A stretch of DNA of 44,223 nt, taken from contig CANFVU010000009.1 in the NCBI GenBank assembly GCA_947450545.1, positions 1-44,223 of the forward strand, given 5' to 3'. Each line of letters begins with the position of its first letter. The stretch's first letter is position 1. The position numbers and the translations under genes are program-made. The notes beneath the pieces are model-generated. The model was not told the origin of the DNA. It saw only the letters and a list, made by a program, of their open reading frames with translations, and did not search any database. This DNA is from Actinomycetota bacterium (lineage in GTDB: Bacteria > Actinomycetota > Actinomycetes > Nanopelagicales > Nanopelagicaceae). This document shows, one piece after another, positions 7,730-30,800 of the stretch.

Positions 7730-8803
7730 ATGAAAGTTCTCCATGTAATTGCCCGCATGAATGTCGGCGGGACTGCGCGATATGTCGGACGGTTGGTGGA
7801 AAGTGATCCATCCGCTGTTTTAGCAACGGGATTTGTGCAAGGTGCGGAAGTAGAAGATCCCTGTGTAGAGAATCTGCCGGTGAAGCGTGTAGAGAATTTA
7901 GGAAGAGCCTTTAATCCGACTTTAGATTTTTTCGCTTATCTCTCACTTCGTAAAATCATTCGCCAAGTGAAGCCAGATATTGTGCATTCACACACATTCA
8001 AAGCAGGGTTACTTGCGCGATTGATTAGCGGCAAGTTTAAACATGTGCATACATTTCATGGACATCTCTTTGATGATGCATCTTTTAGCGGATTGCAAAA
8101 GAAAGTAATTGCATTCTTTGAAAGTTATTTAGCTACTAAGACTGATGTTTTGATTTCTGTGGGAAAGAAAGTTGGAGCTGAACTTCGTTCGGCGGGGATA
8201 GGCCCATTAAGTCCGTGGGTTTCGATTCCGCCTGGAGTAGATGCACTCCCACGTGTTGAGCGTGCGATTGCGCGTAAAGCGCTCGGTATTAACGATGATC
8301 GCGTCGTGGTCGGTTGGATGGCTCGCGTGACATCAGTAAAGAATCCAGCGTTGATGATTGAAGTAGCTAGAAAGTTGCCTGACGTTTCATTCCTTATGGC
8401 TGGCGGCGGAGATTTGTTGGAGGAAGTGAAAGCAGCTGCGCCATCTAATCTTTCGGTTATTGGTTGGACAGATGCGCCTACGTTCTGGAGCGCTGTCGAT
8501 ATCGCAATCTCAACGTCAGATAATGAGGGAATGCCGGTCGCGCTGATCGAAGCTCAACTTGCTGGTGTCCCTGTTATTTGCACCGATGTGGGTTCGAATA
8601 GCGAAGTGATTGAATCGGGATCAACGGGATTGGTCGTTAATAAAGAGATCGGTGCTTTAGTTGGGGCAGTTGAAAAGTTGGTCGCATCTCAAGAGTTGCG
8701 CACTTCTTATGGAAAAGCTGCCGTAGCGCGCGCATCAGTCGAATTTGGAGTGGCAGCGATGATTGAAAAACATACTTCTCTCTATAAAGGCCTTCTTAAA
8801 TAG
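7730..8803 (+). CDS. GT4-family glycosyltransferase
   Basis: A 357-residue GT-B fold retaining glycosyltransferase. The N-terminal MKVLHVIARMNVGGTARYV segment is the usual acceptor-side glycine loop. HTFHGHLF near residue 105 and VGWMARVTSVKNP near residue 195 are typical. The E-x7-E donor-binding motif is EGMPVALIE, with E266 and E274, followed by AGVPVICTD. It adds a sugar from a nucleotide donor to a lipid-linked intermediate on the cytoplasmic side. It follows the exporter ATPase by 6 bp and closes the polysaccharide block. Donor and acceptor cannot be predicted. Confidence 0.87.
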   Translation: MKVLHVIARMNVGGTARYVGRLVESDPSAVLATGFVQGAEVEDPCVENLPVKRVENLGRAFNPTLDFFAYLSLRKIIRQVKPDIVHSHTFKAGLLARLISGKFKHVHTFHGHLFDDASFSGLQKKVIAFFESYLATKTDVLISVGKKVGAELRSAGIGPLSPWVSIPPGVDALPRVERAIARKALGINDDRVVVGWMARVTSVKNPALMIEVARKLPDVSFLMAGGGDLLEEVKAAAPSNLSVIGWTDAPTFWSAVDIAISTSDNEGMPVALIEAQLAGVPVICTDVGSNSEVIESGSTGLVVNKEIGALVGAVEKLVASQELRTSYGKAAVARASVEFGVAAMIEKHTSLYKGLLK

Positions 8804-8881: not shown

Positions 8882-10210
8882 ATGTCACTGGGTAAGCGTT
8901 ATAACGCCGACTGGGCCTCCATTCTCTTGGGGCTCGGCCTAGGGATAACTGCAGCTGTCTATATTGAATCCACGTCGACCTCAGATTGGTCTTCTGTTTA
9001 TTCGATCATCAACTCACTCGCGCGTATTGCTGCGATGCTTGGTGCATATTTCGCTCTTGTTGGATTAGTTCTGGTTTCTCGTATTCCGTGGGTTGAACGT
9101 TCCGTGGGCCACGATCGATTGGTTATTTGGCATCGCAAACTCGGTCCATGGTCGATGTATTTAATTACTTTGCACGTCGTATTGGTTTTGATTGGTTATG
9201 CAGGATTCGATCGCATCAAATTAGGTGTTGAGCTCTGGCGCATGATTCGCCGCTACCCATGGATGCTTCCAGCGTTTGTTGGCTTTATTTTCTTCGTTGT
9301 CGCAGGAATTACGTCATATAAGAAAGCTCGCGCCAAGATGTCCTATGAGACATGGTGGACGATTCATCTTTATACATATTTAGCAATCGCACTTTCATTC
9401 ATGCACCAAGTGCTTACTGGTCCGATGTTTATCGGGCACCCACTTGCCACCTGGTATTGGAAAGGCTTGTACGCCTTTGCCGCATTTGCAATCATCGTGT
9501 GGCGCGCAGGTATTCCGACAATGAATTCCTTTAAACATAATCTGCATATCGAATCCGTTGTGCAAGAAGGTCCTGGCGTTTACTCGGTCATCATGAAAGG
9601 CCGCAACCTCGACAAACTTAAAGCACAAGGCGGACAATTCTTTAGCTGGCGTTTCATGACTCGAGGACATTGGTGGATGTCACATCCATATTCACTCTCT
9701 GCAGCGCCAACTGCTAATTACATACGCGTGACAATTAAAGAACTTGGTGATCACTCTCGCGATGTACGAAATATCAAGCCAGGTACTCGTGTCTTCTTCG
9801 AAGGCCCATATGGAACATTTGTTGCCAATACGTCTACGCGCGGACATGTTGTTTTGATTGGTGGAGGAGTCGGTATCACACCACTTCGAGCGCTGATGGA
9901 AGAGCTTGATCCAACAAAAGTTGTCGATGTTATTTTTCGCGCATCTCGCGATGAAGATTTAGTTCTGCGCAAAGAGCTCGATGCTCTTGCTGATGCTCGC
10001 GGAGCGCGCGTGCATTACCTCGTGGGATCTCGCAAAGAACATCCAATGACTGCCAAATACATCATGAAATATGTCCCAGCTTTTAGAGATTCTGATGTCT
10101 ATGTCTGCGGCCCAACTCCATTGGTGGATGCCGTTCACGAAGCAGCAGTCTCGTGCGGAATTCCTAAAGACCGTATTCACGATGAAGCATTTGAGTTCCA
10201 TAATGTTTAA
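8882..10210 (+). CDS. Membrane flavocytochrome, ferric-reductase-like, NAD(P)H:acceptor oxidoreductase
   Basis: A 442-residue protein with two halves. Residues 10-215 hold about six transmembrane helices with paired His candidates for haem b (HRKLGPW, TLHVV, TIHLY, SFMHQ), as in ferric reductase/NOX-type transmembrane domains. Residues 220-442 form a ferredoxin-reductase-like module: HPYSLSAA near 268 for FAD, GGGVGITPLRAL near 325 for NAD(P)H, and VYVCGPTPLVD near 400. Electrons would pass from cytoplasmic NAD(P)H through FAD and haem to the outer face. The next two genes supply an exported FMN-binding domain and the enzyme that attaches FMN, so the likely acceptor is that flavoprotein. Terminal acceptor unknown. 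Confidence 0.87.
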   Translation: MSLGKRYNADWASILLGLGLGITAAVYIESTSTSDWSSVYSIINSLARIAAMLGAYFALVGLVLVSRIPWVERSVGHDRLVIWHRKLGPWSMYLITLHVVLVLIGYAGFDRIKLGVELWRMIRRYPWMLPAFVGFIFFVVAGITSYKKARAKMSYETWWTIHLYTYLAIALSFMHQVLTGPMFIGHPLATWYWKGLYAFAAFAIIVWRAGIPTMNSFKHNLHIESVVQEGPGVYSVIMKGRNLDKLKAQGGQFFSWRFMTRGHWWMSHPYSLSAAPTANYIRVTIKELGDHSRDVRNIKPGTRVFFEGPYGTFVANTSTRGHVVLIGGGVGITPLRALMEELDPTKVVDVIFRASRDEDLVLRKELDALADARGARVHYLVGSRKEHPMTAKYIMKYVPAFRDSDVYVCGPTPLVDAVHEAAVSCGIPKDRIHDEAFEFHNV

Positions 10211-10226
10211 AAAGGAGAGTAGTTAA

Positions 10227-10763
10227 ATGAAGCGCGCATTACTGATTGCTGGCGGCACCGTCGGCGGGCTGGGAGCAGTCCTCTCTATTACTCCTCCTAA
10301 CTTCGGGCACTCAACAGGTATCGCAGGCGGCATTAATACTTCGACAGCAACCCCAACTCCTGCTGCAGCAACCCCAACTCCTGCTGCAGCAACCCCAACT
10401 CCTGCAGCAACAAAGACAAAAGCGACTGCGACGAAGAAAGCAACTCCCAAAGCCACTCCAACGAAAGCTGCAGCAACGGGAGCAACAGGAACATTTACAG
10501 GAAACGTTGCGAGTACTCAATTTGGAAATGTCCAAGTTCAAATTACAGTGTCGAATGGAAAGATCACTGCAGCGAAAGCTTTGCAATATCCCAATCGTGA
10601 TGGTCGTTCACAAGAAATTTCTCGCCAAGCAATTCCATATCTGGTGGAAGAGACACTTGCTGCGAATAGTTCAAATATTCAAGGAGTCGGTGGAGCTTCA
10701 TATACATCTCAAGGTTGGTATGACTCACTCGTCTCTGCTCTCGCTAAGGCCGGAATGAAATAA
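10227..10763 (+). CDS. Exported FMN-binding domain protein (covalent flavoprotein)
   Basis: A 178-residue protein. An N-terminal hydrophobic segment (residues 3-22) is a signal anchor or signal peptide. Residues 35-90 are a low-complexity Ala/Thr/Pro/Lys spacer. Residues 92-178 are an FMN_bind domain like those of RnfG and NqrC. In that family FMN is bound through phosphate to a Thr/Ser in an (S/T)GA(T/S) motif. Here the motif reads GGAS, making S158 the likely acceptor instead of the usual Thr. A strong Shine-Dalgarno (AAAGGAGAG) precedes the ATG. It lies between a membrane flavocytochrome and ApbE, which together suggest a surface electron carrier. Confidence 0.87.
   Translation: MKRALLIAGGTVGGLGAVLSITPPNFGHSTGIAGGINTSTATPTPAAATPTPAAATPTPAATKTKATATKKATPKATPTKAAATGATGTFTGNVASTQFGNVQVQITVSNGKITAAKALQYPNRDGRSQEISRQAIPYLVEETLAANSSNIQGVGGASYTSQGWYDSLVSALAKAGMK
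10351..10412 (+). repeat. Three ~21-bp tandem repeats coding the flexible linker
   Basis: Units of the form CCAACTCCTGCTGCAGCAAC are repeated three times, the third slightly shortened, and encode TPAAA-type steps in the linker between membrane anchor and FMN domain. The copies are nearly identical, suggesting recent duplication and likely length variation between strains. Confidence 0.7.
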
Positions 10764-11518
10764 TGGAACGAGCTCGTGTTCGGGCCGAAATTGAAACGTG
10801 GGGCACAATACTTTTTATTGATGTTGCTTCTACGCAAGTAAGCGAAGAAGAGTTGAACGCTGGCATCGAAGAATGCCGTAAGTATTTCTATTTTGTGGAC
10901 GATGTTTTTAGTACCTACAAGCCAGAGTCAGAAGTATCACGATTGCGCGCTGGAAAGCTTAAGCTCTCTGATTGCCACGATGATGTAAAGGAAGTATGGG
11001 CAGCGTGTGAATATGCGCGCGAAGTAAGCGATGGATATTTCGATCCTTGGTGCGTTGAAGGTGGTTTTGATCCATCAGGATATGTAAAAGGATGGGCAGC
11101 AGATAAAGGTATTGCGATTTTGAAATCTCACGGCGCTGAAAATATTCAAATAAATTGCGCAGGGGATCTCTCACTTGCAGGTGGATTGGAAAACGGAGCT
11201 CCGTGGAATATCGGAATTCGCCATCCCGAAGAAGCTCATACGATTGTAAAAGTCTTTGACATCATGGATGGTGCGATTGCTACATCAGGCACGTACGAGC
11301 GCGGAGCACACATTCGCGATCCACATACGGGGCTCATTGCATTAGGTGCACGCTCGGCAACGGTGATCGGTCCCGATGGTGGGCTCGCTGATGCTCTTGC
11401 AACCGCGATGGTTGTCGCAGGCCGTGAAGGCGCATATCTATTTATGAAACCAGAACTTGAGGCATATAACTGTTGGGTCATTGACCGCCACGGCGACATG
11501 GCGTGGTCACCGAAATAA
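10763..11518 (+). CDS. apbE: FAD:protein FMN transferase (ApbE)
   Basis: A 251-residue protein, shorter than Gram-negative ApbE (about 330) and without a signal peptide or lipobox. Family motifs are present: a DDVFSTYKPESEVSRL region near 47-62, DPSGYVKGWAADKG near 107-120, a NCAGDLSLAGG core near 131-141, and TSGTYERGAHIRDPHTG near 174-190 for Mg2+ and FAD. Family enzymes move FMN from FAD onto a Thr/Ser of target domains, and the target is most likely the FMN-binding protein encoded just upstream, with which it shares a TAATG stop/start overlap. Lack of an export signal suggests flavinylation occurs before or during export, unlike lipoprotein ApbE; this is inference. Confidence 0.88.
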   Translation: MERARVRAEIETWGTILFIDVASTQVSEEELNAGIEECRKYFYFVDDVFSTYKPESEVSRLRAGKLKLSDCHDDVKEVWAACEYAREVSDGYFDPWCVEGGFDPSGYVKGWAADKGIAILKSHGAENIQINCAGDLSLAGGLENGAPWNIGIRHPEEAHTIVKVFDIMDGAIATSGTYERGAHIRDPHTGLIALGARSATVIGPDGGLADALATAMVVAGREGAYLFMKPELEAYNCWVIDRHGDMAWSPK

Positions 11519-11580: not shown

Positions 11581-13275
11581 ATGCGAAAAATCCCAAGCCG
11601 CGTTGTGGCGATTAATTCCGTTTTAGTCCTTGCGATTGTAGGAGGAGGTTTCTGGGGTTATTCAACTCTTCATCCCAAAGCTGCACCCGTGACGCTTCAA
11701 ACTGCGACTGTCACGCGAGGTGATGTTGAATCAACCGTCTCGGCTTCTGGCAAAGTGATTAGTCCGGGGGACATTGGATTGGCACCACTAGTAGCTGGAA
11801 CTCTCAAGAGTTTGAATGTAAAAGTCGGAGATCACGTGAGTGCTGGTGATGAGTTAGCTCAACTTGATACAACCTCACTCAAAACCGCACAGGCCCAATC
11901 GCTTGCTGCTCTTATCGCAGCGAAAGCATCTGTTGCTTCGGCAGCAACCCAACTAACGCAAGCGCAAACCACGCTCGATACTGCTAATCAAAATCTAGCT
12001 AATCAACAAACAACAATCTCTCAGAACGCTGAAAATTATCAGGCCGCAGTAACGGCTGCAAAGAAATCCGTTGATGACACAACAGCCAATCAAGCATTTA
12101 GCGCTAAAACATACCAACAGGCAATCGACACAGCAAAGAATTCGCTCGCAGCTGCCCAATTGAGTTATGACAATTATCTTGGATTGTATGGACCAGCTGG
12201 GATTACTGTGCCTTGGTGTACATCTATCCAGACAATTAATGCCAACTGTTCTCAATTGATGACGTATTACCAAGCTCTTACAAATGCAAAAATTGCAGTC
12301 GAAACTGCGATTCAAAATCAATCAGCTTCATTATTGAAAGATCAACAATCGCTCGCATTGCTACAAACTTCGTACAACACGGCTGTTACAAACCAAAAGA
12401 TTAATTTGGCTAAAGACCAAGATTCACTCACGTCGTTCAAACTTGCGGTTACAAACGCCCAAGCAGCACTTGATAATTTGAAAGTATCGCAAAATATAGG
12501 CTCGACAGACCCAACCACTGCTCAACTCCAACTTCAAATTGCGCAAGCTAATTATGATGTTGCTACGAAGAATCTTGCCGGGGCGACTATCACAGCGCCA
12601 GTCTCTGGTGACGTAGCTTCCATATCTACCGCAGTGGGCGGAAGCGTCGACACAAAGTTTACGCAGGCAACAAATACCACTACCGCAACGGGATTTATCG
12701 TTTTAACCAACACCACATCTCTTCGCGTAACTGCAAGCTTCTCGGAAGCTGATGCAGCAAAGATTGTTGCTGGACAAGATGCATCGTTCACTTTTGATGC
12801 TCTGTCCAGCGTTACTGCCACAGGAAAAGTTCTACAAGTTGATCTCCTTCCAACAACATCTGGCGGCGTAACATCATACGGAGCAACATTCTCTGTAGAT
12901 GGCAAGGTCCCAGGTCTTAAAGTTGGAATGACAGCAACAGCAACCGTGAGTACAGGTTTTGCTGCTGGAGTCATTCAAGTCTCTGCTCAAGCCGTCACAA
13001 CTCGAGGTGGCTTAAGTTTCGTCAATGTTGTAACCACGAAAAATGGTAAGCAAGTGATTACGCCAACACCTGTCGTTGTTGGACTTAAAGGCGATAGCGC
13101 TGATGAAATTCAATCTGGTCTTAAAGAAGGTGAAAAAGTTTCACTTCCTTCTGTTAAAGCAACGACCTCAAGCAACGGATTTGCAATAGGCGGAATTCCT
13201 GGAGGAACAAGTGCATTTGCAGGTGTTGGAGCTGGCGGCGGAATCGGCGGCGGACAAGGTCGCGGTAACGGTTAA
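11581..13275 (+). CDS. Membrane fusion protein (MacA/HlyD-like) of an ABC exporter
   Basis: A 564-residue adaptor. One N-terminal transmembrane segment (about residues 8-28) is followed by a lipoyl-like half-motif (SASGKVISPGDIGLAPLVAGTLKSLNVKVGDHVSAGDELAQLD), then a very long Ala/Gln/Thr-rich helical hairpin (about 95-330) with a Cys pair near its middle (VPWCTSIQTINANC). The second lipoyl half (ATITAPVSGDVASI), a beta-barrel and a C-terminal domain follow. The tail is Gly-rich (GGGIGGGQGRGNG). In monoderms such proteins work with MacB-type transporters without an outer-membrane channel. It joins the ATPase gene by TAATG. Substrate unknown. Confidence 0.85.
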   Translation: MRKIPSRVVAINSVLVLAIVGGGFWGYSTLHPKAAPVTLQTATVTRGDVESTVSASGKVISPGDIGLAPLVAGTLKSLNVKVGDHVSAGDELAQLDTTSLKTAQAQSLAALIAAKASVASAATQLTQAQTTLDTANQNLANQQTTISQNAENYQAAVTAAKKSVDDTTANQAFSAKTYQQAIDTAKNSLAAAQLSYDNYLGLYGPAGITVPWCTSIQTINANCSQLMTYYQALTNAKIAVETAIQNQSASLLKDQQSLALLQTSYNTAVTNQKINLAKDQDSLTSFKLAVTNAQAALDNLKVSQNIGSTDPTTAQLQLQIAQANYDVATKNLAGATITAPVSGDVASISTAVGGSVDTKFTQATNTTTATGFIVLTNTTSLRVTASFSEADAAKIVAGQDASFTFDALSSVTATGKVLQVDLLPTTSGGVTSYGATFSVDGKVPGLKVGMTATATVSTGFAAGVIQVSAQAVTTRGGLSFVNVVTTKNGKQVITPTPVVVGLKGDSADEIQSGLKEGEKVSLPSVKATTSSNGFAIGGIPGGTSAFAGVGAGGGIGGGQGRGNG

Positions 13276-13988
13276 TGCAACAACTACTCGATGCTCCCAT
13301 TATTGATGTGAGGGGAGCAGTTAAACAATACGGTGCAGGCGATGCTTCGATATTCGCTTTGGACGGTGTTGACTTACAAGTTCATCGTGGTGAATACGTA
13401 GCAATTATGGGTCCATCCGGTTCGGGTAAATCGACGCTCATGAACATTATTGGCGCTCTCGATAATATGACCACAGGAAAGTATTTCCTCGATGGTATTG
13501 AAATTGATACTCTTGATGAAAATGCTCTCGCGCTCGTCCGCGGTCGAAAAATTGGGTTTATCTTTCAATCATTTAATTTGATTCCACGCACTACCGCGCT
13601 TGCCAATGTTGAACTCCCTCTGGCATATCAAGGCATTAAGGGGAAAGAACGTCGCGAACGCGCTCTTGCTGCCCTCAACGTTGTGGGATTAGGCGATCGC
13701 ATAAGCCATGAACCCACAGAGCTTTCCGGCGGGCAACAACAACGCGTTGCGGTCGCTCGCGCTCTTTCTACTCGACCTGCGCTCCTATTAGCTGACGAAC
13801 CAACCGGCGCTCTTGATTCAAAATCGACACATGATTTGTTAGACCTGTTCGATCAGATAAATGCAGCAGGCCGCACCGTCGTCGTGATTACGCACGAAGA
13901 TGACGTAGCAGCTCGTGCGAAGCGTATTGTGCGTATGAGAGATGGAAAAATTATTTCAGATACTTCACACAAGAAGGTGAGCGCATGA
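13275..13988 (+). CDS. MacB/LolD-type ABC transporter ATPase
   Basis: A 237-residue ATPase of the MacB/LolD/FtsE clade. Walker A is GPSGSGKST from residue 46, the Q-loop is in [23 protein letters not shown], the signature is [15 protein letters not shown] near 150, and Walker B is [15 protein letters not shown]. The ADEPTGALD string is typical of this clade. Unlike E. coli MacB, the ATPase is a separate chain. It overlaps the following permease by ATGA, so stoichiometric synthesis is likely. Confidence 0.92.
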
Positions 13989-15211
13989 GTATCTTTGAAA
14001 TCATTCGCTTTGCGCTTCGTGGGTTGAATTCCAATAAATTGCGAACATCTTTGACGACTCTTGGAATTGCCATCGGAGTCTCTTCTGTCATCATCTTGCT
14101 CGCTTTCGGAAATGGATCAAGTAAAGCGGTCCAAGCCGGAATCGAGAAGCTCGGGACGAATACGATCACCATCCAATCCAATCGAGGGGGATTCGGTGGT
14201 GGACGTGCCTCGGCTTCGCGAGCTGCTTCATCTAAACCATTAACAGTTGCAGATGCCGTCGCTCTTTCTAGTCCAATCAACGCTCCTGATGTTAAGCAAG
14301 CAGCACCTGTTGCAGGAGCCAACGTCACATGTTCCGCGGGAACAAATTCGTCCACACCCGGAACATTCAATGGCACATGGCCTTCATGGTTTGAAGCATC
14401 AAATACATCAGTCACAAAGGGCTCGTACTTCACAAATGAAGATGTGACGCAAGGTCGTCGCGTTGCAGTAATCGGGCAGACTGTCGCAACTGAATTGTTT
14501 CCTACAGGCACACCAATCGGTCAAGTAATGCGATGCAGCGGAATTCCGTTCACCATTATTGGTGTCACGGAGAAAAAAGGATCGAATGGTTTCCAAGATG
14601 GAGATTCACTTGTAGTTGCACCGTTGACTGCAGTGCAGCGTTCTATTACTGGTTATAACAACTTACAATCTATTGTTGTCGAAGCGAAGTCAGCTAAAGT
14701 TCAAGATCTCGCTCAAACTGAAATAAATACGATTATGGACGCCCAACATAAAATCAAGAACACAAATAATCGTGATTACCGCACATTGAATCAAGCCTCT
14801 TTGCTGCAGACAACTTCTTCTAGTAACTCTGTTTTTACTGCGTTACTTGGAATGGTCGCTGGAATTTCATTGCTTGTCGGAGGAATCGGCATTACAAATA
14901 TCATGCTTGTGACAGTTGTCGAGCGCACACGTGAAATTGGTATCCGTAAAGCGATTGGCGCACCGAAACGCGCCATCATGACCCAGTTCTTGATTGAAGC
15001 AACGATATTGAGCTTAGTTGGTGGTCTCATTGGAGTAGTAGGTGGATTTATAGGAAGCCATTTCAAAATCTATGGGGTCCAGCCCATCATTATTCCTGGT
15101 TCAGTTTTCTTAGCATTCGGAGTCAGTATATTAATTGGTATTTTCTTCGGAGGTTATCCAGCTTCACGCGCAGCATCCCTACGACCAATAGAGGCACTTC
15201 GTTATGAGTAA
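13985..15211 (+). CDS. MacB-type ABC transporter permease
   Basis: A 408-residue permease with one transmembrane helix near residues 18-42, a large external domain (about 45-275) and three C-terminal helices (about 280-305, 335-360, 370-395). The FtsX-like hallmark ERTREIGIRKAIGA is near residue 320. Two Cys in the external domain (VTCSAG and MRCSG) could form a disulfide. Family members act as mechanotransmission pumps that expel peptides, macrolides or lipids with a MacA adaptor. The next gene begins 8 bp inside this one. Confidence 0.9.
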   Translation: MSIFEIIRFALRGLNSNKLRTSLTTLGIAIGVSSVIILLAFGNGSSKAVQAGIEKLGTNTITIQSNRGGFGGGRASASRAASSKPLTVADAVALSSPINAPDVKQAAPVAGANVTCSAGTNSSTPGTFNGTWPSWFEASNTSVTKGSYFTNEDVTQGRRVAVIGQTVATELFPTGTPIGQVMRCSGIPFTIIGVTEKKGSNGFQDGDSLVVAPLTAVQRSITGYNNLQSIVVEAKSAKVQDLAQTEINTIMDAQHKIKNTNNRDYRTLNQASLLQTTSSSNSVFTALLGMVAGISLLVGGIGITNIMLVTVVERTREIGIRKAIGAPKRAIMTQFLIEATILSLVGGLIGVVGGFIGSHFKIYGVQPIIIPGSVFLAFGVSILIGIFFGGYPASRAASLRPIEALRYE

Positions 15212-16022
15212 TACATGGGTTCCAAATGATGAGAGTGAAAAGAACAATAATAATTTTGATCTCTTTGCTCCGGCGGGCGATGATAATTTGCAAGAAGTCC
15301 TCGCAAGGGGAAGTTATAAGTGGACAAATAAGTACACAGCTATCTTCGCAGTTGCTCTTCTTATTGTCGTAAGTACTTCTGCCGGTATTTGGTATGGACA
15401 CCGTTCCGCTTCGACATCATCAGGAATTTCACTCCCTTCTCTCAATGGAAGTGGCTTTACTCGAAGTGGGTTTACTCGCAACGGAGTCGCGCGTAATTCA
15501 GGAGCAGCATCCGCCACAACTGCAGTTGGATTTGCAGGCGGAGGTTTTGGCGGCGGAAGAGGAACTCCTGGTGTAGTTGATTCAATAAAGGGTAAAACAA
15601 TCACAGTCACTCTGACTTCTGACCCCTCAACTCCGATTAAATCGGGAGACACAGTTTCAGTTCGCCCAAGCAATGGTGGACAGGTGGCTGCGCCACCATC
15701 AGCACCAACATCAACTCGACAAAACACAGGAGGCACGAAGACATCCACAACGTCAGGTGCAACTCCTGCACCGAGTGTTTCTGGAGCACCACAAGCAGGC
15801 AATGGTGGTGGCGGTGGTGGTCGTGGTTTTGCGAATAATCCAGAGCTCGTAGCCTGTTTGGAAAAAGCTGGCGTAACTTTAGTTCCAGGACAACAGTTAG
15901 ACCGAACTGATCCAAAAGTTGCTGCAGCAATGCAAACGTGTTTTGCATCAGTTCGCGGTGGATTTCCCGGCGGCAACCGTCCAAGCGGCGCTCCTGCTGG
16001 CGGTACTCCTACCAATCCTTAG
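15204..16022 (+). CDS. Gly-rich single-pass membrane protein of the export operon
   Basis: A 272-residue protein I cannot assign to a named family with confidence. Residues 1-34 are polar and cytoplasmic, 37-58 form one transmembrane helix, and the rest would lie outside. A short beta-rich segment (GVVDSIKGKTITVTLTSD, about 124-141) recalls DUF5666-type OB folds. It is flanked by Gly/Ser/Thr-rich spacers. A C-terminal element with two Cys (LVACLEKAGVTL...DRTDPKVAAAMQTCF) is a recurring actinobacterial exported motif. It overlaps the permease gene by 8 bp, so it is probably an accessory part or cargo of the exporter. Confidence 0.7.
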   Translation: MSNTWVPNDESEKNNNNFDLFAPAGDDNLQEVLARGSYKWTNKYTAIFAVALLIVVSTSAGIWYGHRSASTSSGISLPSLNGSGFTRSGFTRNGVARNSGAASATTAVGFAGGGFGGGRGTPGVVDSIKGKTITVTLTSDPSTPIKSGDTVSVRPSNGGQVAAPPSAPTSTRQNTGGTKTSTTSGATPAPSVSGAPQAGNGGGGGGRGFANNPELVACLEKAGVTLVPGQQLDRTDPKVAAAMQTCFASVRGGFPGGNRPSGAPAGGTPTNP

Positions 16023-16038: not shown

Positions 16039-16527
16039 ATGACAACGACCGGGGGATTTTCAAGCGAGCAATTAGCTCTCGAAGAATCTATCTTGGTATT
16101 TCCTCGTTTTGATTTACTCGAAGCGGTTGAGCTTGGGGAAATTGCGATGGATATGGCGTTGGATCGTTCGCTGCCAATCACTATCGAAATTCGCATGGGT
16201 GAGCGCATTGTTTTTCACGCATCACTTCCTGGTTCCAAAGTCGATCAAGACTCATGGATTGCGCGCAAAGCTCGCGTTGTATTAGCAACAGGTCGTTCGA
16301 CAATGTACGAACGCGTGAAAGCGGAAGAAGACGGTATCGATTGGTATGCGCACTACAACCGACCTGAAGAGACGCATGCGATTCATGGCGGCGCACTTCC
16401 TATCAACGTTGCAGGTGATGGCATGCAAGGGATGTTGCTTATCAGTGGTTTGCCACAAGTAGAAGATCATTTGCTCGGCGTGGAGATAATGACAGAGTTC
16501 TTAGCGCGTAAAGGTGAAACCGAATGA
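16039..16527 (+). CDS. UPF0303/HbpS-like domain protein
   Basis: A 162-residue soluble protein resembling the UPF0303 (DUF336-related) family, whose members adopt a GlcG/HbpS-like fold. The visible pattern is a helical start, a beta segment (PITIEIRMGERIVFHASLPGS), the conserved WIARKARVV stretch near residues 74-82, and a final Gly-rich part (HGGALPINVAGDGMQGMLLISGL). Some relatives bind haem, but no function is firmly established for this subgroup. It overlaps the PfkB kinase gene by ATGA, which links it to sugar metabolism. Confidence 0.75.
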   Translation: MTTTGGFSSEQLALEESILVFPRFDLLEAVELGEIAMDMALDRSLPITIEIRMGERIVFHASLPGSKVDQDSWIARKARVVLATGRSTMYERVKAEEDGIDWYAHYNRPEETHAIHGGALPINVAGDGMQGMLLISGLPQVEDHLLGVEIMTEFLARKGETE

Positions 16528-20352: not shown

Positions 20353-20766
20353 ATGGCTGAACAACATGAATTACGCGAAAAGGGCCTTCGCCTGACCCCA
20401 CAACGCGAGCTTGTGCTTCAAGCAGTGCGCGATTTGGGCCATGCAACCCCTGAAGAAGTTGCTGAAAAGGTGCGCGAGACGCATCCAGGAATCAACCTTT
20501 CTACCGTGTATCGGAACCTCGAAACCCTAGAAAATGTTGGCCTCGTTCAGCACGCTCACTTAGGCCATGGCGGGGTTACCTATCACGCTGCTGAAGAAGA
20601 GATTCACGCTCACCTCAAGTGCGAAAAGTGCGGTGTTTTGATCGAAGTTCCTATCGAAGCGACAGCACATTTCACACAATCTCTGATTGATGATTATGGA
20701 TTCCACACAGATCTCTCGCACCTTGCAATCGCAGGTCGTTGCGAAGCATGTTTTAATCAAGCGTAA
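20353..20766 (+). CDS. Fur-family metalloregulator, Nur-like
   Basis: A 137-residue Fur-superfamily repressor. Residues 1-80 form the winged helix (LRLTPQRELVLQAVRDLGHATPEEVAEKV; STVYRNLETLENVGL). The dimerisation domain has CEKCG and GRCEAC Cys pairs for structural zinc. The HAHLGHGGVTYH segment is strongly like the nickel-site region of Streptomyces Nur, and the late His in SHLAIAGRC is also kept. In the second-site region Nur has a His cluster, whereas here the first His is Glu (EEEIHAH). Nickel (Nur) is my best guess, but iron or zinc sensing is not excluded. It is 12 bp upstream of a YgfZ-type gene. Confidence 0.82.
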   Translation: MAEQHELREKGLRLTPQRELVLQAVRDLGHATPEEVAEKVRETHPGINLSTVYRNLETLENVGLVQHAHLGHGGVTYHAAEEEIHAHLKCEKCGVLIEVPIEATAHFTQSLIDDYGFHTDLSHLAIAGRCEACFNQA

Positions 20767-21800: not shown

Positions 21801-24800
21801 TTGATCACTTCGTTTCGTGGGGCTCATTCCCCGCGCCTTCGTAAGTGGATCAGCGTTTCACTTTTACTTCCGCTTTTTACCTTCATCGCACCGAACGTTG
21901 CGAACGCAGCTACGTCGACATGCATGTATCGAATGTCGTATTTGAGTTCGTCTTCCACTAGTAGCAGTGCGACAGCTGTAACAACTAAAACCGCTGGCTC
22001 GACGATCTGGGCACGCGTGAGAGTGCGTGATGTAGCTACAAGTTGTTCAAATGGTACCAGCGTTACAAAAGGAACGGTGGTTTTCACAAACCTAACTTCA
22101 GGCACGGAACTGTGCCGAACAAGCAGCGTTACATCGGGATATTTCAATTGTTCCTTCACGGTGCCCGCAACAGGTCCGATCCCATTAAAAGCTTCGTATT
22201 CGGATTCAACTGGCACATATAAATCCATAGACAGTCAAACCAATGGTGATGGAGCTCTCTCGGCATCTCTTGCGGTGACTGCAGCTGTGGGTGCGGCAAC
22301 AAAATTGAGCATCACGCAATCTCCGACCGGTGGCTCAAGTGGTGGCCTGCTTACTCAGCAACCATGGATTGCCATTCAAGACGCAACGAGTACGACTGTG
22401 ACAAGTAGTTCAGCCTCAGTCACAGTATCAATCGCGAGTGGTTCGGGCGGAACCCTTGGTGGTACTACGACAGTTTCGGCATCATCTGGAATTGCAAAAT
22501 TTACAGATCTCACTTTTGCAGGAACGGTTGGCACAACTTACACATTAACTTTTACTTCGACCCCTCTCTCACCGGTGACGTCATCAACGATCACGGTGAC
22601 TTTTGGAACTGCTTCGAAAGTTGCGATCTCAACAGCGCCAGTGTTGGGAAGTTCTAGTTCGGTTATGGCGACCCAACCAGTCATAACTATTCAGGATGCA
22701 CAAGGCAATACTGTTACAAATAGTTCTGCATCAGTGACAGTTTCAATTGCATCTGGAGCAGGCGGAACTTTGAGCGGAACCGAGTCCTCCGGAGGCAAGG
22801 CTGCATCCAGCGGTATGGCCACTTTCTCGAATCTGGCCTTTTCAGGTACTGCCAATACCAACTACACCTTTACTTTCGCCTCGAGCGGGTTAACCTCGGC
22901 AACCACGGCGAACCTCCAGGTTTCGGGATCATCTTCAAAAATTGGCTTCAATACCCTCCCAATTTTGGGTTCTTCGGGATCCTCGCTTGCTCAAAACCCC
23001 GTTATCGCCATCCAGGACGTCAACGGAAATACGGTTACCTCCGATAACTCGACCTCGGTGACAGTCTCGATCGCATCGGGAGCCGGCGGATCTTTTGGGG
23101 TGCTCAATACCCTCACACGCACGGCGGTAAATGGGTTTGCCACTTTTTCAGGCCTTACCTTCACGGGTTCAGGCACATATACCCTGACATTTACGGCCAC
23201 TATCGGCGGATCATCCAAGACGGCCACGACGGGCTCCCTCTCCCTATCCGGGTCAGCGAATAAATTGACCGTTTCCACCCAGCCAGTAGGGTCGACAAGC
23301 GGCGGTACGCTCACAACTCAACCCGTTGTTCGCGTGGAAGATTCAAATGGCCAGTTGGTCACTTCGAGCACGCTCCTGGTAACTGCTTCAGCTCTCGGAA
23401 CTGGCGGATACATATTTAATAGCAGCTCAGTGACGGCCACCGCTGTCGGCGGCATCGCCACTTTTTCTGGGCTGAAGTTCAATGGCGTAGTTGGTACCTC
23501 ATATCAACTCAGCTTTGCGGGCTCGAGTGTTACATCTGGAACATCTGGACCACTGTTCGTTGCCCCCGGTTCTGCCTCTAAATTGACGATTTTGACTCAA
23601 CCCGCCGGCGGAGCGAGCGGGGATCTTCTTTCACCTCAACCGGTAGTCCGTATCGAGGACGTTGACGGGAACCTAGTTTCGGGAAGCTCCGCGACTGTAA
23701 CCGTTTCTATTTACTCGGGAGCCAGTGGGGTTTTAGCTGGTGGGGAAGCTTCATCGGGCGTGAATGCCAGTGCTGGTCGAGCTACTTTTAATAATTTAAC
23801 TCTCGCAGGATTGAGTAGTGAAAGCTACGTTTTGAGATTTGCCTCCGCAGGTCTTACTTCAGCCCAATCTGATCCCTTTAAGGTAACAGAGGGTGCGATT
23901 TCTTTAGCCAATGCCCTTATTTCCGCCAGCTCAACCACACTTGTTGCGGATGGTTCAACGACTACGACAATCACAATTCAATCTCGTGATGCCCAGGGAA
24001 ACCCTGTATCGACAGATGGAGGTGTGCTTGCACTGTCAGCCTCTGGTGGGGGCACAATCGGCCCCGTTACTAATAACGTTGATGGAACTTACACGGCGAC
24101 GTACACCGCAGGAGCCAGTGCCGGAACTGCAATCATCTCGGGAACATACACGGACCCAAGCCCGGATGTGGCCATCACTAATTCACTCAGCATCTCTTTA
24201 GTCTCGAATAATGCAAACCTATCTGCGCTCGCTCTCACGACTGCAACACTCGACTCTTCTTTCTCATCTGGCACAACTAGCTATACCGCAACGGTGCCAA
24301 ACACCACGACTTCGATAACGGTCACGCCTACGGTCAGCGAATCGCATGCGACCGTGACAGTGAATGGCACAGCGGTCACAACGGCTTCAGCGTCTGGCTC
24401 AATCAGCCTGACGGCAGGGGCAGCTACCACAATTACTGTTGTTGTCACTGCTCAAAATGCGACGACGAAGACATACACGGTTTCGGTGACACGTACTGCA
24501 GCTGAAACGACTTCAACGCTCAGTGGACTTTCCCTCTCCGTCGGAACTTTGAGCCCAACCTTCTCTTCCTCAACGCTTTCATACACAGCTTCTTCTCTCT
24601 CGGGAACAACCGCAATAACCGTAACTCCAACAGCATCTGGATCATTCTCAACGATTCAAGTCAAAGTTGGCTCAGGATCTTATGCATCCGTATCTTCTGG
24701 AAGCGCATCCTCGAGTCTTTCTCTCGCTTATGGAAATAACACAGTCACGATTCTCGTAACGGCTCAAGATTTAACGACATCCACCTACTCAGTTGTCATT

Positions 24801-27800
24801 AATCGACCACTTATTTCTCGAACAATTTCCTTCACTTCGCCACCAACGTCACTTACTTATGGCTCGACAGCGACACTTTCGGCTTCACCTTCAGCAGGTC
24901 CCTCTGAAGGATCGGTCTCTTACAGCGTAGGAGCGTCAACAGGATGTTCGCTCACAGGAGCGGTGCTTTCGGTGACGGATGCGACAGGCACCTGTTCAAT
25001 CAGCTCGACTGTTACATCAGGTGCGACCTATGCATCTGCAACCACTTCTGCTTCGGTTACCCTGAACAAGGCGACCCAGACGACTTTGAATCTCTCTTCT
25101 TTGGGCACTTCTTCCAAGACATACCCATTCTCACAAGCGCTATCTGCATCAACGACTGGCGGATCGGGCAGTGGGTCGGTTACTTATGCAGTAACGAGTG
25201 GAACGGCAAGCGGATGTGCGCTCAGCAATACGACCTCAACTGCGACTATTTCGGCGACAAGTTCTGGAACATGTTTAGTCACTGCTACAAAGGCTGGCGG
25301 ATCCAATTACAACGATGCGACCTCATCAGCCTCGACTTTCACATTTAATAAGGCGACCCAGTCTGCGCTCTCAATTTCTTCACTTGGAACTTCCTCAAAG
25401 AGCTATCCATATTCACAAGCTCTTAGTGCAACAACTTCAGGAGGTTCAAGCTCAGGATCTGTGACATACGCAGTTGCAAATGGAACTTCGACTGATTGTG
25501 CACTGAGTTCAACCGCTGCTAATGCAACAATCACAGCCTCCACAATTGGAACCTGTCTTATTACTGCAACCATGGCTGGCGGCACCAACTACAACGACGT
25601 CTCGTCGAGCTCTTCTACTTTCACATTTAGCAAGGCAACCCCTTCGATCTCGATCTCACTCCCTGCTGGCGCAACCACAGCCTCATACGGAACGGCTGTG
25701 ACAATCACAGCGACTTCTGGAGCTGCGGGAACTCTTAATTTCAAAGTTGGCGGAACCACAATCTCAGGTTGTGGCACTGTGGCCACGTCGGACGGAATAT
25801 GCTCATGGACGCCTGGAGCTGTTGGAGCTTCGACACTTTTAACCGCCGTTCTTACTCCAACTTCGACTGCAAATTACAACTCCAATACTTCTTCAACGCT
25901 CACGATTAACGTCGGAGCGGCTGCTCAAACAATCTCGTTTGGAGCTCTTTCAGATAAGTCCTACGGAGATGCGAACTTCACAGTTTCTGCAACCGCAAGC
26001 TCAGGCTTAACGGTTGCTTTTGCTTCCACAACGACCTCTGTTTGTACAGTTTCAACGACCACAGTTCACATCGTCAAAGCCGGTGATTGCACGATCAAAG
26101 CTTCTCAAGCAGGAAACGCGTCTTATGGTGCGGCTGCGGATGTCAATCAAACATTCACGATTTCAAAGGTGACTCTTCATGTGACCGCGTCCTCACCTTC
26201 GGTCGTATATGGCGCAGCAATCCCAACAATCACTCCGTCATATACATCTGGAGATTTTGTTAATAGCGAAAATGCTTCCTCCTCAAGCTTCACAACTGGC
26301 TTAACTGCACCAACATGTACGACGACATACACAACGACTTCTAATGCAGGAACAACGCCATCAACTTCATGTTCGGGTGGATCTGCTACAAATTACACAT
26401 TCAGCTTTACATCTGGATCTGTAACAATCGGACAAGCTACGCCTGCGATCCACTGGGCGACCCCAGCTCCGATTCGCGACAATATTCCGCTATCGAGCAC
26501 CCAGTTAAATGCGACTGCAAATGTGAGCGGTTCATGGTCTTACACGCCTTCAAGTGGAATGCTTTCGGCCGGCACACAAGTCCTTTCGGTTACATTTACC
26601 CCAACCGATTCAACAAATTACACAACAGCGTCCTCTAGCGTGAACCTTTTTGTTACCGGAGCGACTGCGCCGAACGCACCAAACGCACCATCCATCACGA
26701 ACGTTGGAGTTACAACATCTTCCTCTCTTGCAATTACATGGACGCCAGTAACCGATGCAAATAATGGCGGATCCACAATCACGAAATATCAGTTCCGATT
26801 CTCCGCAGCCATTGGTTCGCCATCTTTTAGTGACTGGGCTGATTTGCAGGGAACCTCAGGAACATCAGAGTCGATTACAGTCACCTCAACTTCTAAGTCA
26901 TACATCGTTCAAGTCCGTGCATGTAACATCATTGGTTGTAGCGGTACTTCAAGTAGTTCTTCTGCAGCAACCTCGACAGGTGTCATTGTCACAGCACCAG
27001 CAAGCGCACCATCAGCAAGTGCTTCTCTTAACTCTTCTTCTGGCGCCGTCACTGTCACATATGCGGCGGTTTCTGGCGCAGTTTCATATCAATATTCCAC
27101 CGACGATGGTGCAACGTGGAAGACTGCAGGCTCGAGCGGATTTACTTTCACTGCAACAAAGGGCACAGAACATAAAGTTAAAGTCCGCGCAATTAACAGC
27201 GCCGGCAATGGTCCAGGCTCTTCAGCATCAACGGTTAAGTGGCAGACCAAGCCAGGTAAACCTACATCTGCAGCTGGTTCACTGGTAGGAACTTCGGGAA
27301 CTCAAGTTTCGATTAGCTTCACTCTCTCGGATAACGGTGGCGGAACGACTCGCTACGAATACCGAAGCGGTAGCGATTCAGATGATGAAGAAGTTGGGCA
27401 CTCAACCTGGCAATTCGCATCTGCAGCAACCAATCCATTTACAGTAAATGTTGGTAGCAACGATCGTTATTACCGGTTCCAAATCCGTGCATGTAATGGC
27501 GATGACGAAAACGCTAACTGTGGCGAGCCATCTGAATCTTTCCGTGTCAATGCCAACCGAGCTCGCATCACAACTCAACCTTCATCAACGTCACTGACCA
27601 CAGGTCAAAGTGCGTCTTACGACTTATCTGTCACAGCTGTACCTGCAGCAAGTGAGTCTTTGACCTATACCTGGTATCGCAATAGCGTTGAAATCAGCGG
27701 CGCTACATCTTCAACTTATCGTTTGAGTTCAATTACTTCTGCAAAAGCCGGTACTTATAAGGTAGTTGTCCATGCCGGCGCAATCGACCTTGAATCTAAT

Positions 27801-30800
27801 GAAGCTGTAGTAACAGTTAACTCCGCGCCAACTTTGAGCACCACAACATTTGCTGGTGCAACTGTCGGATTGAGTTATTCATACAATCTTCCTGGTGCAA
27901 ACGGAACACCAAATTACAAATACACAGTTGGCACTTTGCCATCAGGCCTCTCGTATTCATCCGAATACAAGCGCATTACAGGAACAGTCTCCCGAACGGT
28001 TAGCGCTGGCGCAAAGACATTCACTGTTGTCGTCACAGATTCCAAGGACGTTTCAAGCTCTTCGTACACTGTCACAATTAACGTATCTACGCCAATAACT
28101 ATAACTACAACAACTCTTGGCGCAGCATCGAAGGGCTCGATTTACACAACTGCTTTGGCAGTATCCGGTGGAAGTGCACCATATACGTGGACTCTAGATT
28201 CTGGATCAGATCCCCTACCAACTGGATTTAGCCTTGATGCTTCAACCGGCGTTCTCTCATCGGGAGGCGTCAATGTTCCGGACAACGCAGCATCATCGTC
28301 ATTCGATGTACTTGTTACTGATGGGAATGGCGCAACTGATACTCAGAAACTGACGCTAAGCATTCTCGCTGGAATTCCAAATGCACCTCGTACTCCTGCA
28401 GCATCTCCAGCAAGCAAAGAAATTACTTTGACGTGGACAGATCCTGAAGCAAAATCTGGCGTATCAATTTCGAATTTCATTATTTCCTATGTAAAACCTA
28501 AGGGTGAACACAGTGAAGATGGTGGCAATGATGACGAAGAGCGTGGCTCAATTTCAGTTGATGGAAGCGCCCATTCATATACAGTCACAGGTCTTACAAA
28601 TGGATTGCCTTACACATTCACCATTTCTGCGAAGAGCAGTGGTGGAACCGGAGCACCTTCAAGCCAAGTAACTGCAACACCACTCGGCCGTGCATCCGCT
28701 CCTCAATCTGTAACAGCGGCGCTTGGGCGTAACGGAATTTCAGTTCGTTGGAAGAAGCCAAATGAATCTGGTGGCGGCTCAATCAACACATGGGTTATTG
28801 CTTGTTCAGCATCCGGTGGCGAAACCATCACCAAAACCTTCAGTGAGGGCGATGGCGATGAAGAGCACAGTGAAGATGGTCAAAACCGTTACTCCGTTTA
28901 TAGCGACGACGATAATGATGCATCACACCATTTAATTGCAGGTCATGCATACACATGTACTGTCGCAGCGAAGACCACAAAGGGATCCACCACAACTGTT
29001 GGAACTCCAAGCTCACCAAGTTCGAGCGTAACTTTTGCATCAGTCCCATCAGCACCTAGCACTCTCAGCGGCACATACAACGCTGGCGCACGCAAAATCA
29101 CAGTCACCTGGACCGCATCTGCATCAAACGGTGGAAGCACCATCAAGAAATATATTGCGTGGATCAAACAAGGCGATAGCGAAGAAGGCAAGCGCCAATG
29201 CTTTACGGATATCAATGGAATTACCTGTGATATTTCAAATCTTCCAAGTAAGGGTCACTTCACGCTTCGCGCTGTGGCTGTAAACGATATCGGTCAATCG
29301 GACGAAGCAACTGTCGATGTTGAAATCACGGGACGAGATCAGACACTCACTTTGCCAACGATTTCTGATAAAACAATCGGGGATGCTGACTTTAACGTTG
29401 GAGCTTCCTCATCTGCTGGGTTGAATCTTAAATATTCGAAGCATTCTGATAGCGGATCCAACTGCTCCGTCACTGAAAAGGGCACAGTTAAGGTCCTTCG
29501 AGTCGGAATTTGTAAATTGACTATCGAGCAAAATGGACACAAGTCTGATGAGCACGGCGATGATTCCAACGAGGAATCCGAATATCGCTCGGTTTCAGGA
29601 ACAATCACCTTCAACATTGTGGATCGTCTTCCTTCAGCACCGACTGTTACAACAGTTGCTTCTGGAAATACCCAACTCACCATCAATTGGAGTGCTCCAA
29701 GTTCAGCGGGCGGAACACCGACTGGATACCAAGTCGCCGTTGTAAAGGTTGCAGATTGTGGCGTTCAGAGCACATGTACTTGGAATGAATCGTCGACTGT
29801 CTCAACATCTCCACTCAACCTTCCAGTTGGTTCACTCCTTAACGGCACTCCTTATTATGTAAAAGTACGAGCAATCAATGGCGCTGGTGGTTCAGCATGG
29901 GCATACGGATCAAGCTCATATATTCCTTACAAAGTGCCCGACGCCCCATCAATCACAGGAATCACAACATTCTCCGAGACATCCACTGCAACTATTGCTT
30001 GGTCTGCTCCTGCCAATAATGGAAATGCAATTAACTCCTACACAGTTACAGCAACCCCAGGTGGAGCAACCTGCACCACTGGTGGAACTCGCTCATGTTC
30101 AATTTCTGGTTTAACAAATGGCACCACATATTCATTTAAGGTTTACGCTCACAACGCTGCTGGTAATGGCCCAGAATCTGGAGCAAGCACCGCAACTATC
30201 GATCAAGTAGCTCAAACCGTTGCGTTTACTGAATCTAAATCGATGTATGGATATGCAGTTGGGGATCCAAACGTTGAATTCAAGGCAGCTGCTACAAGCG
30301 GATTGCCGGTCCAATGGTCTACATCTGATGCAACAGTATGTACCGTCACATCAGGCGGATCTGTTCGAATTATTTCTTCTGGTACGTGTGAAGTTATCAT
30401 CGCCCAAAATGGTCGCGATGCTGGTGGCGCTCGTACGCGATATGCAGGTGCAACGTACACAGCAAACACAGCAACAATCGTTATTGATCCGGCAACACCT
30501 TCGGCCCCAACACTTATTTCTGTAACGAATACTCAAGCTGGACTTGTTCTGGTTTGGACGGCACCTGCCCGTGCTGGCGGAACAATCACATATGCCATTA
30601 CTGGAGTAAACGGCTCAAATACTGCGAACTGCACGGTTGTCAGCCTGCTTACTTGCACCATTCAACCAAGCAATAAGGGTATGTCTTACGGATTTACCGT
30701 TGTTGCACAAAATGCGGCAGGAAATAGCCCAGCTTCAAATACTAAGTATGGAACATGGATCGTTAAACCTTCAGCTCCACGTACCGATGGTTCACATGCA

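Follow-up and report, generated by a model that had tools for sequence, protein, structure and literature searches.

RESULTS

A three-gene cassette predicted to export electrons

The 44,223-nucleotide stretch analyzed here (the window) is the entire contig CANFVU010000009.1 (our contig C9) of a Nanopelagicaceae genome (GCA_947450545.1; 1.31 Mb, 88% complete). Between positions 8882 and 11518, it carries three adjacent genes that encode, in order, a transmembrane b-type cytochrome linked to NAD(P)H and flavin adenine dinucleotide (FAD), a protein with a flavin mononucleotide (FMN)-binding domain (FMN_bind), and an ApbE FAD:protein FMN transferase (Table 1). These genes probably form a cassette for exporting electrons across the membrane that belongs to the known MsrQ-like flavinylation type (probability of roughly 0.8), a function deduced from sequence and fold. 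The first two genes are separated by 16 bases, and base 10763 is shared by the second and third. An earlier model-made reading of this DNA (the initial annotation) had described three adjacent genes for a reductase, an FMN-binding protein, and ApbE, and both their coordinates and their domain content were borne out by the open reading frames and by Pfam.

In the proposed route, the reductase would take hydride from NAD(P)H at its cytosolic FAD domain and, as its conserved residues and fold suggest, pass single electrons via two bis-histidine hemes to the outer face of the membrane. The FMN_bind protein would be anchored by an N-terminal helix and hold its FMN domain outside the membrane by means of a flexible linker that spans the wall. 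FMN, presumably attached to S158 through a phosphoester by the cassette ApbE, would take up these electrons and hand them to an acceptor outside the cell. The initial annotation had proposed this path from NAD(P)H through FAD and heme to external, covalently held FMN, which ApbE would attach, and with the heme histidines present it is still the best reading that we infer.

The cassette is widespread and belongs to a described class

Searching with the reductase, we sampled the 80 best-matching named genome loci. All three genes were present in 58 of these, 15 had only the reductase and FMN_bind genes, and 7 ended within 500 bp of the reductase gene. Where 2.5 kb or more of sequence was available downstream, an FMN_bind gene stood beside the reductase gene in every case (67/67) and an ApbE gene was found in 54 of 67. 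Synteny of the cassette extends across the phylum, and a Streptomyces plasmid record in RefSeq lists these three products in identical order. Strong reductase matches (E ≤ 1e-130) occurred in 24/31 same-genus genomes, a count that includes genomes with paralogues only; matches in the other 7 were weak or absent. Because of this recurrence within the genus and the phylum-wide synteny, the locus is not a chance arrangement. In the genome itself, we found one PF01794 protein, one ApbE, and two FMN_bind proteins, and we counted the sole ApbE and the sole PF01794 protein in favor of the cassette reading.

Meheust et al. (2021; PMC8238504) describe 1797 MsrQ-like flavinylation clusters, mainly from Actinobacteria, where they are broadly conserved. 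These clusters typically contain apbE and an FMN_bind gene, 1437 of them include a C-terminal NAD-binding domain, and NAD(P)H is suggested as the donor. As in the window, a PF01794 cytochrome with two heme sites (four histidines) adjoins PF04205 and PF02424 genes. The locus is one more MsrQ-like flavinylation cluster, neither new nor a reduced chain. We rejected the statement of the initial annotation that the chain is reduced to a minimum, since three genes are the usual MsrQ-like set both in that study and in the 58 complete loci above; "compact" therefore describes the class. The locus adds one member to this class, and the part worth keeping is a class-wide puzzle over the compartment in which ApbE acts.

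The reductase retains four candidate heme ligands

The reductase matched the ferric-reductase-like membrane domain PF01794 (61.3 bits), the FAD domain PF08022 (29.7 bits), and the NAD-binding domain PF00175 (38.8 bits). Four histidines (H84, H98, H162, and H175) are its predicted heme ligands and make up two heme sites. In an alignment of 65 rows, H84 was kept in 61, the other 4 being gaps, and the remaining three were kept in 65/65 each. The initial annotation had named a lack of heme-ligand histidines in the membrane part as grounds for giving up the route; no such lack was found, because none of the four is replaced by another residue in any row of the alignment.

The AlphaFold model of the reductase (predicted local distance difference test [pLDDT], 81) best matched SpNOX, the NADPH oxidase of Streptococcus pneumoniae, among structures in the PDB (8qt6, E = 2.6e-17; 8qq7, TM-score = 0.70/0.76), and the best sequence match was likewise SpNOX. 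Both proteins combine a heme membrane domain with an FAD/NAD domain, at approximately 20% identity. SpNOX is not known to have an FMN_bind or ApbE partner. These matches raise the alternative of a bacterial NADPH oxidase whose product would be superoxide or peroxide, with the FMN protein serving either as a side sink for electrons or as a relay that reacts with oxygen. It is also consistent with this alternative that SaFMN3, an FMN-binding protein of Streptomyces azureus, can use dioxygen as an acceptor when reduced (PMC10339131). Superoxide production would, however, be predicted from likeness to SpNOX, and because NADPH oxidases and MsrQ-like proteins share a fold, that likeness does not discriminate between them. 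Moreover, FMN_bind looks like a dedicated partner of the reductase, since it adjoins the reductase gene in all 67 loci with room for it. We therefore regard an NADPH oxidase as an improbable identity for this protein.

The FMN-binding domain and its predicted serine acceptor

By sequence, the FMN_bind protein matched domain 2 of SaFMN3 (PDB code 8p2a) with a phmmer E value of 3e-19. The same structure ranked first in a search with the AlphaFold model of the FMN domain (E = 6.3e-8; TM-score on the target = 0.87), in which pLDDT is mostly 75 to 94 and falls to 59 in the block around the acceptor loop. In both systems, a putative flavin transferase gene flanks the FMN-binding gene. SaFMN3 has three tandem domains and carries covalent FMN on threonine, as established by crystallography (PMC10339131), whereas the protein encoded here has one domain and a serine. 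Its layout consists of an N-terminal MKR, a conserved hydrophobic helix at approximately residues 4 to 22, a Thr/Ala/Pro/Lys-rich linker, and the FMN-binding domain at residues 88 to 178. The likely acceptor, S158, lies in the motif GVGGAS and would carry the FMN covalently.

We aligned 126 such domains, 119 of them distinct, and counted the acceptor by alignment columns, because counting by regular expression misreads motifs such as QSARINGASGAS. Among the distinct domains, the acceptor was Ser 62 times and Thr 57 times. All 119 have Ala at position −1 together with the Ser or Thr, which argues for strong selection for a hydroxyl acceptor. Other positions vary: Asp occupies position −6 in 23/119, and position −3 holds Ser or Thr in 95/119 and Gly in 22/119. 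The literature also records Ser among the targets that ApbE accepts. The initial annotation had read Ser in place of Thr; the serine stood up, and the idea that it is unusual was rejected given its frequency across the distinct domains. Conservation of S158, which the initial annotation had proposed to check in orthologues, was complete in the genus, where 13/13 distinct domains read Q..GGAS.

A second FMN_bind protein (254 aa) is encoded elsewhere in the genome (contig C40, L001:1378-2142), between genes that by eye appear to be truA and rplM. It has a Sec-like signal ending in ...TFAAA, the motif GVSGAS, and a C-terminal linker. Despite this second protein, only the cassette ApbE turned up in the genome (88% complete).

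A flavin transferase that lacks an export signal

The ApbE protein matched PF02424 with 133.4 bits. In an alignment of 81 rows, S175, D210, and K109 were each conserved in 79, and H183 was conserved in 74 (replaced by Q in 3 and by E in 2), with 2 gaps in each column. A review of ApbE names Ser, His, and Asp as catalytic residues, and by motif and order S175, H183, and D210 would be equivalent to the triad of the Vibrio cholerae enzyme.

To score export signals, we required a mean Kyte-Doolittle hydrophobicity of at least 1.6 over 17 residues ahead of the domain. By this test the cassette ApbE has no N-terminal hydrophobic segment, and it has no lipobox. Its stop-to-stop frame opens only 5 codons before the ATG, which leaves no room for a hidden signal sequence upstream. 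The same absence was seen in 81/82 cluster-type ApbEs, or 79/80 after removal of duplicates, and the sole exception (L206), a GC-rich open frame that extends 217 residues upstream, looks like an artifact. Four of five control ApbEs from other bacteria scored positive (Escherichia coli, 1.97; Ruegeria, 2.03; Eleftheria, 1.93; Acetoanaerobium, 2.40), and a Vibrio ApbE scored 0.42. The lack of an export signal reported in the initial annotation was thus confirmed, but it is not special to this locus. Because 11/11 of the best-scoring ApbEs encoded elsewhere in related genomes (L105 to L115) also lacked a hydrophobic segment, the trait seems to be one of actinobacterial ApbEs generally rather than of this cluster alone. 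There is precedent for ApbEs that work in the cytosol on targets located there, as with fumarate reductase in Klebsiella.

The FMN-binding proteins are predicted to face outward

The N termini of the FMN_bind proteins share the consensus MKRxxIVxxGTVAGLxxVLSF, a short basic segment followed by the conserved helix. Positive charge is greater ahead of the helix than in the 15 residues after it in 101 of 115 distinct proteins (13 ties; 1 reversed), and the positive-inside rule therefore predicts an N-in/C-out orientation. The linkers after the helix are rich in Thr, Ala, Ser, Pro, and Gly and have a median length of 71.5 residues; long linkers of this composition are typical of extracytoplasmic regions. 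By eye, the protein encoded here has neither a cleavage site nor a lipobox. The charge distribution and the linker support the earlier proposal that its FMN domain is exported on a flexible tether, as far as topology can be predicted from sequence.

A basic pair stands directly ahead of the helix in 82 of 100 FMN_bind proteins, compared with 56/237 other N-anchored proteins from the same loci; the count leaves out 17/117 FMN_bind proteins without a callable start or helix. The pairs were KR (53), RR (19), KK (7), and RK (3), with none in 18, so that 72/100 carry [K/R]-R. The enrichment (p = 1e-23) is overstated because the sequences are homologous; the preference for Arg in the second position has p = 0.015. 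R3 is nearly invariant in an alignment of 24 FMN_bind proteins, and some orthologues from the genus read TRRFFL or SRRFFL, close to the twin-arginine translocation (Tat) motif quoted in PMC13323110. Both a recent Tat structure and an older screen, the latter in its title, stress the second arginine. A TatC is encoded in this genome and was found in 56/60 genomes searched.

We did not accept a canonical Tat signal for these proteins. The protein encoded here has Lys-Arg rather than Arg-Arg, and KR outnumbers RR overall. Paralogues within the genus share the helix but carry Lys alone (as in MGATKATLIV), and a Sec-like signal is present in the other FMN_bind protein of this genome, as noted above.

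DISCUSSION

Several observations weigh against the electron-export reading. The PF04205 score of the FMN_bind protein barely exceeds the cutoff (23.7 versus 22 bits) and is weak alone. Most of its N-terminal 40 residues have pLDDT < 50, so that the helix is unmodelled by AlphaFold and the topology comes from charges only. The signal-less ApbE and the exported FMN domain have no obvious meeting point. No iron-uptake gene adjoins the cassette, and VIT1 was not seen among the Pfam-scanned neighbors. Finally, the acceptor region, QGVGGAS, departs from the strict motif D-x-x-[S/T]-G-A-[S/T], with Q152 in place of Asp and G155 in place of Ser or Thr in addition to the Ser acceptor, and GGAS likewise differs from the [S/T]GA[S/T] of PMC8238504; in tests quoted in the ApbE review, Ser was a poorer acceptor than Thr. 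The two drifted positions are less usual than the serine itself. Departure from the strict motif lowers the claim of covalent flavinylation but not that of homology.

The drift could instead mean that recognition by ApbE has relaxed, that FMN is bound non-covalently or flavinylation is absent in this lineage, and that ApbE serves another substrate. Fixation of Q152, G155, and S158 throughout the genus would fit this explanation, as would three genus genomes that have FMN_bind matches but no ApbE match (G001, 90% complete; G020, 95%; G022, 94% with 6% contamination), which could reflect assembly gaps in these genomes or non-covalent FMN_bind proteins. However, the hydroxyl acceptor and its preceding Ala are invariant, apbE directly follows in most clusters, and an Asp-to-Ala substitution in the flavinylation motif had a minor effect in a tested case. 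Loss of covalent attachment is accordingly unlikely in our view. It is very unlikely that the FMN domain is cytosolic (anchor N-out/C-in), sharing a compartment with ApbE in a system that would export no electrons: the near-universal absence of a signal from the cluster ApbEs, against scores of at least 1.9 in four of five non-actinobacterial controls, and the many lysines in the linker of the protein encoded here speak for this arrangement, but the charge bias of the helix and the length and composition of the linkers speak against it.

For the preferred electron-export cassette, the signal-less ApbE raises the prospect that FMN is attached in the cytosol before export. The absence of signals from the ApbEs, together with the N-in/C-out, [K/R]-R-bearing character of their partners, suggests flavinylation inside, perhaps followed by Tat export. 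A possible, if doubtful, model is that the ApbE of Actinobacteria (and of the Chloroflexi that share the cassette) stays inside and flavinylates cytosolic FMN_bind where FAD is plentiful, after which the folded holo-protein would be exported via a Tat-type route that accepts both KR and RR and be left anchored by its N-terminal helix. If true, this would invert the accepted order, in which export comes first and flavinylation takes place outside. It would make FAD export unneeded, explain how Gram-positive Actinobacteria make external flavoproteins while exporting neither FAD nor ApbE, and add cofactor-loaded proteins of a new kind to the cargo of the Tat pathway. We found no paper stating that flavinylation in the cytosol precedes Tat export, as far as literature listings and excerpts from the two main papers show; Tat and twin-arginine occur neither in these excerpts nor in the main text of PMC8238504. 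Among 121 loci, no open reading frame fuses FMN_bind to ApbE or to the reductase.

As the terminal acceptor we tentatively put ferric iron first, through assimilatory reduction, with quinones, oxygen, and oxidized protein as alternatives. Iron reduction was suggested in PMC8238504 for 153 MsrQ-like clusters with VIT1, from which the cassette described here differs in having no VIT1 beside it among the scanned neighbors. The sifABCDE iron-uptake genes of Bifidobacterium (PMC5449479) also combine an FMN-binding domain protein with FtsX-type permeases and an ATPase, but they are a different gene set, with no PF01794 gene named in that description, and their resemblance to the macAB-type neighbors in the window is loose. 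We found no paper on ferric reductases of the Nanopelagicales. The nearest named relatives of the locus are uncultured freshwater actinobacteria known as metagenome-assembled genomes, with strain IMCC26103 among them; since the relatives of this 1.31-Mb genome are of freshwater origin, the small planktonic cell imagined in the initial annotation is reasonable.

Genomic context and related clusters

The HlyD-ABC-MacB set starts 62 bp after apbE on the same strand (Table 1) and may be cotranscribed with the cassette here. HlyD and ABC genes adjoin the cassette in 9 genus loci (L056, L057, L058, L061, and L064 to L068), with their order kept, and were not found beside it in genus loci L059, L062, and L063 or in loci L069 and L073 from other genera of the family. 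Because the set is a neighbor in only part of the genus, we place it outside the defined cassette. Scans for promoters and terminators gave no clear excess over shuffled sequence.

Table 1. Positions of the cassette genes and of other features in the window
Feature	Position	Strand	Remarks
Reductase: NAD(P)H/FAD-linked transmembrane b-type cytochrome	8882..10210	+	442 aa; PF01794+PF08022+PF00175; MsrQ-like/NOX-like
FMN_bind protein	10227..10763	+	178 aa; PF04205; 8p2a match by sequence and fold
ApbE FAD:protein FMN transferase	10763..11518	+	251 aa; PF02424; no export signal
HlyD-type membrane-fusion protein	11581..13275	+	Downstream neighbor
ABC ATPase	13275..13988	+	Downstream neighbor
MacB-type permease	13985..15211	+	Downstream neighbor
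Glycosyltransferase	7730..8803		Upstream of cassette
Gly-rich protein	15204..16022		Weak ExtJ match, below cutoff
HbpS-like heme-degrading protein	16039..16527		Follows the Gly-rich protein gene
Fur-family regulator	20353..20766		PF01475, 86.5 bits; ~9 kb from cassette
Fibronectin type III (FN3) proteins	21801..36796		4077 aa with many FN3 domains; 920-aa FN3/OmpA protein

Beyond the upstream glycosyltransferase gene lie what by eye appear to be polysaccharide-export transporter genes. ExtJ, which the Gly-rich protein weakly resembles, belongs to a selenite/tellurite operon. The FN3 proteins are of surface type and very large for a genome of 1.3 Mb.

Several genus genomes contain a second reductase/FMN_bind pair, with the reductase 61 to 68% identical and no apbE nearby. 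Paralogous clusters of reductase and FMN_bind genes lacking an adjacent apbE were seen at L036 to L045, L070 to L072, L139, L150, and L155; some hold a second FMN_bind protein of 370 to 430 aa. Among their neighbors are secreted proteins of small size, one protein resembling esterases, and another that by eye looks YceI-like. At L175, L179, and L180, a gene close to the cassette (family 25) encodes a small membrane protein that carries several histidines and by eye resembles the DUF4405-type cytochromes of PMC11334425.

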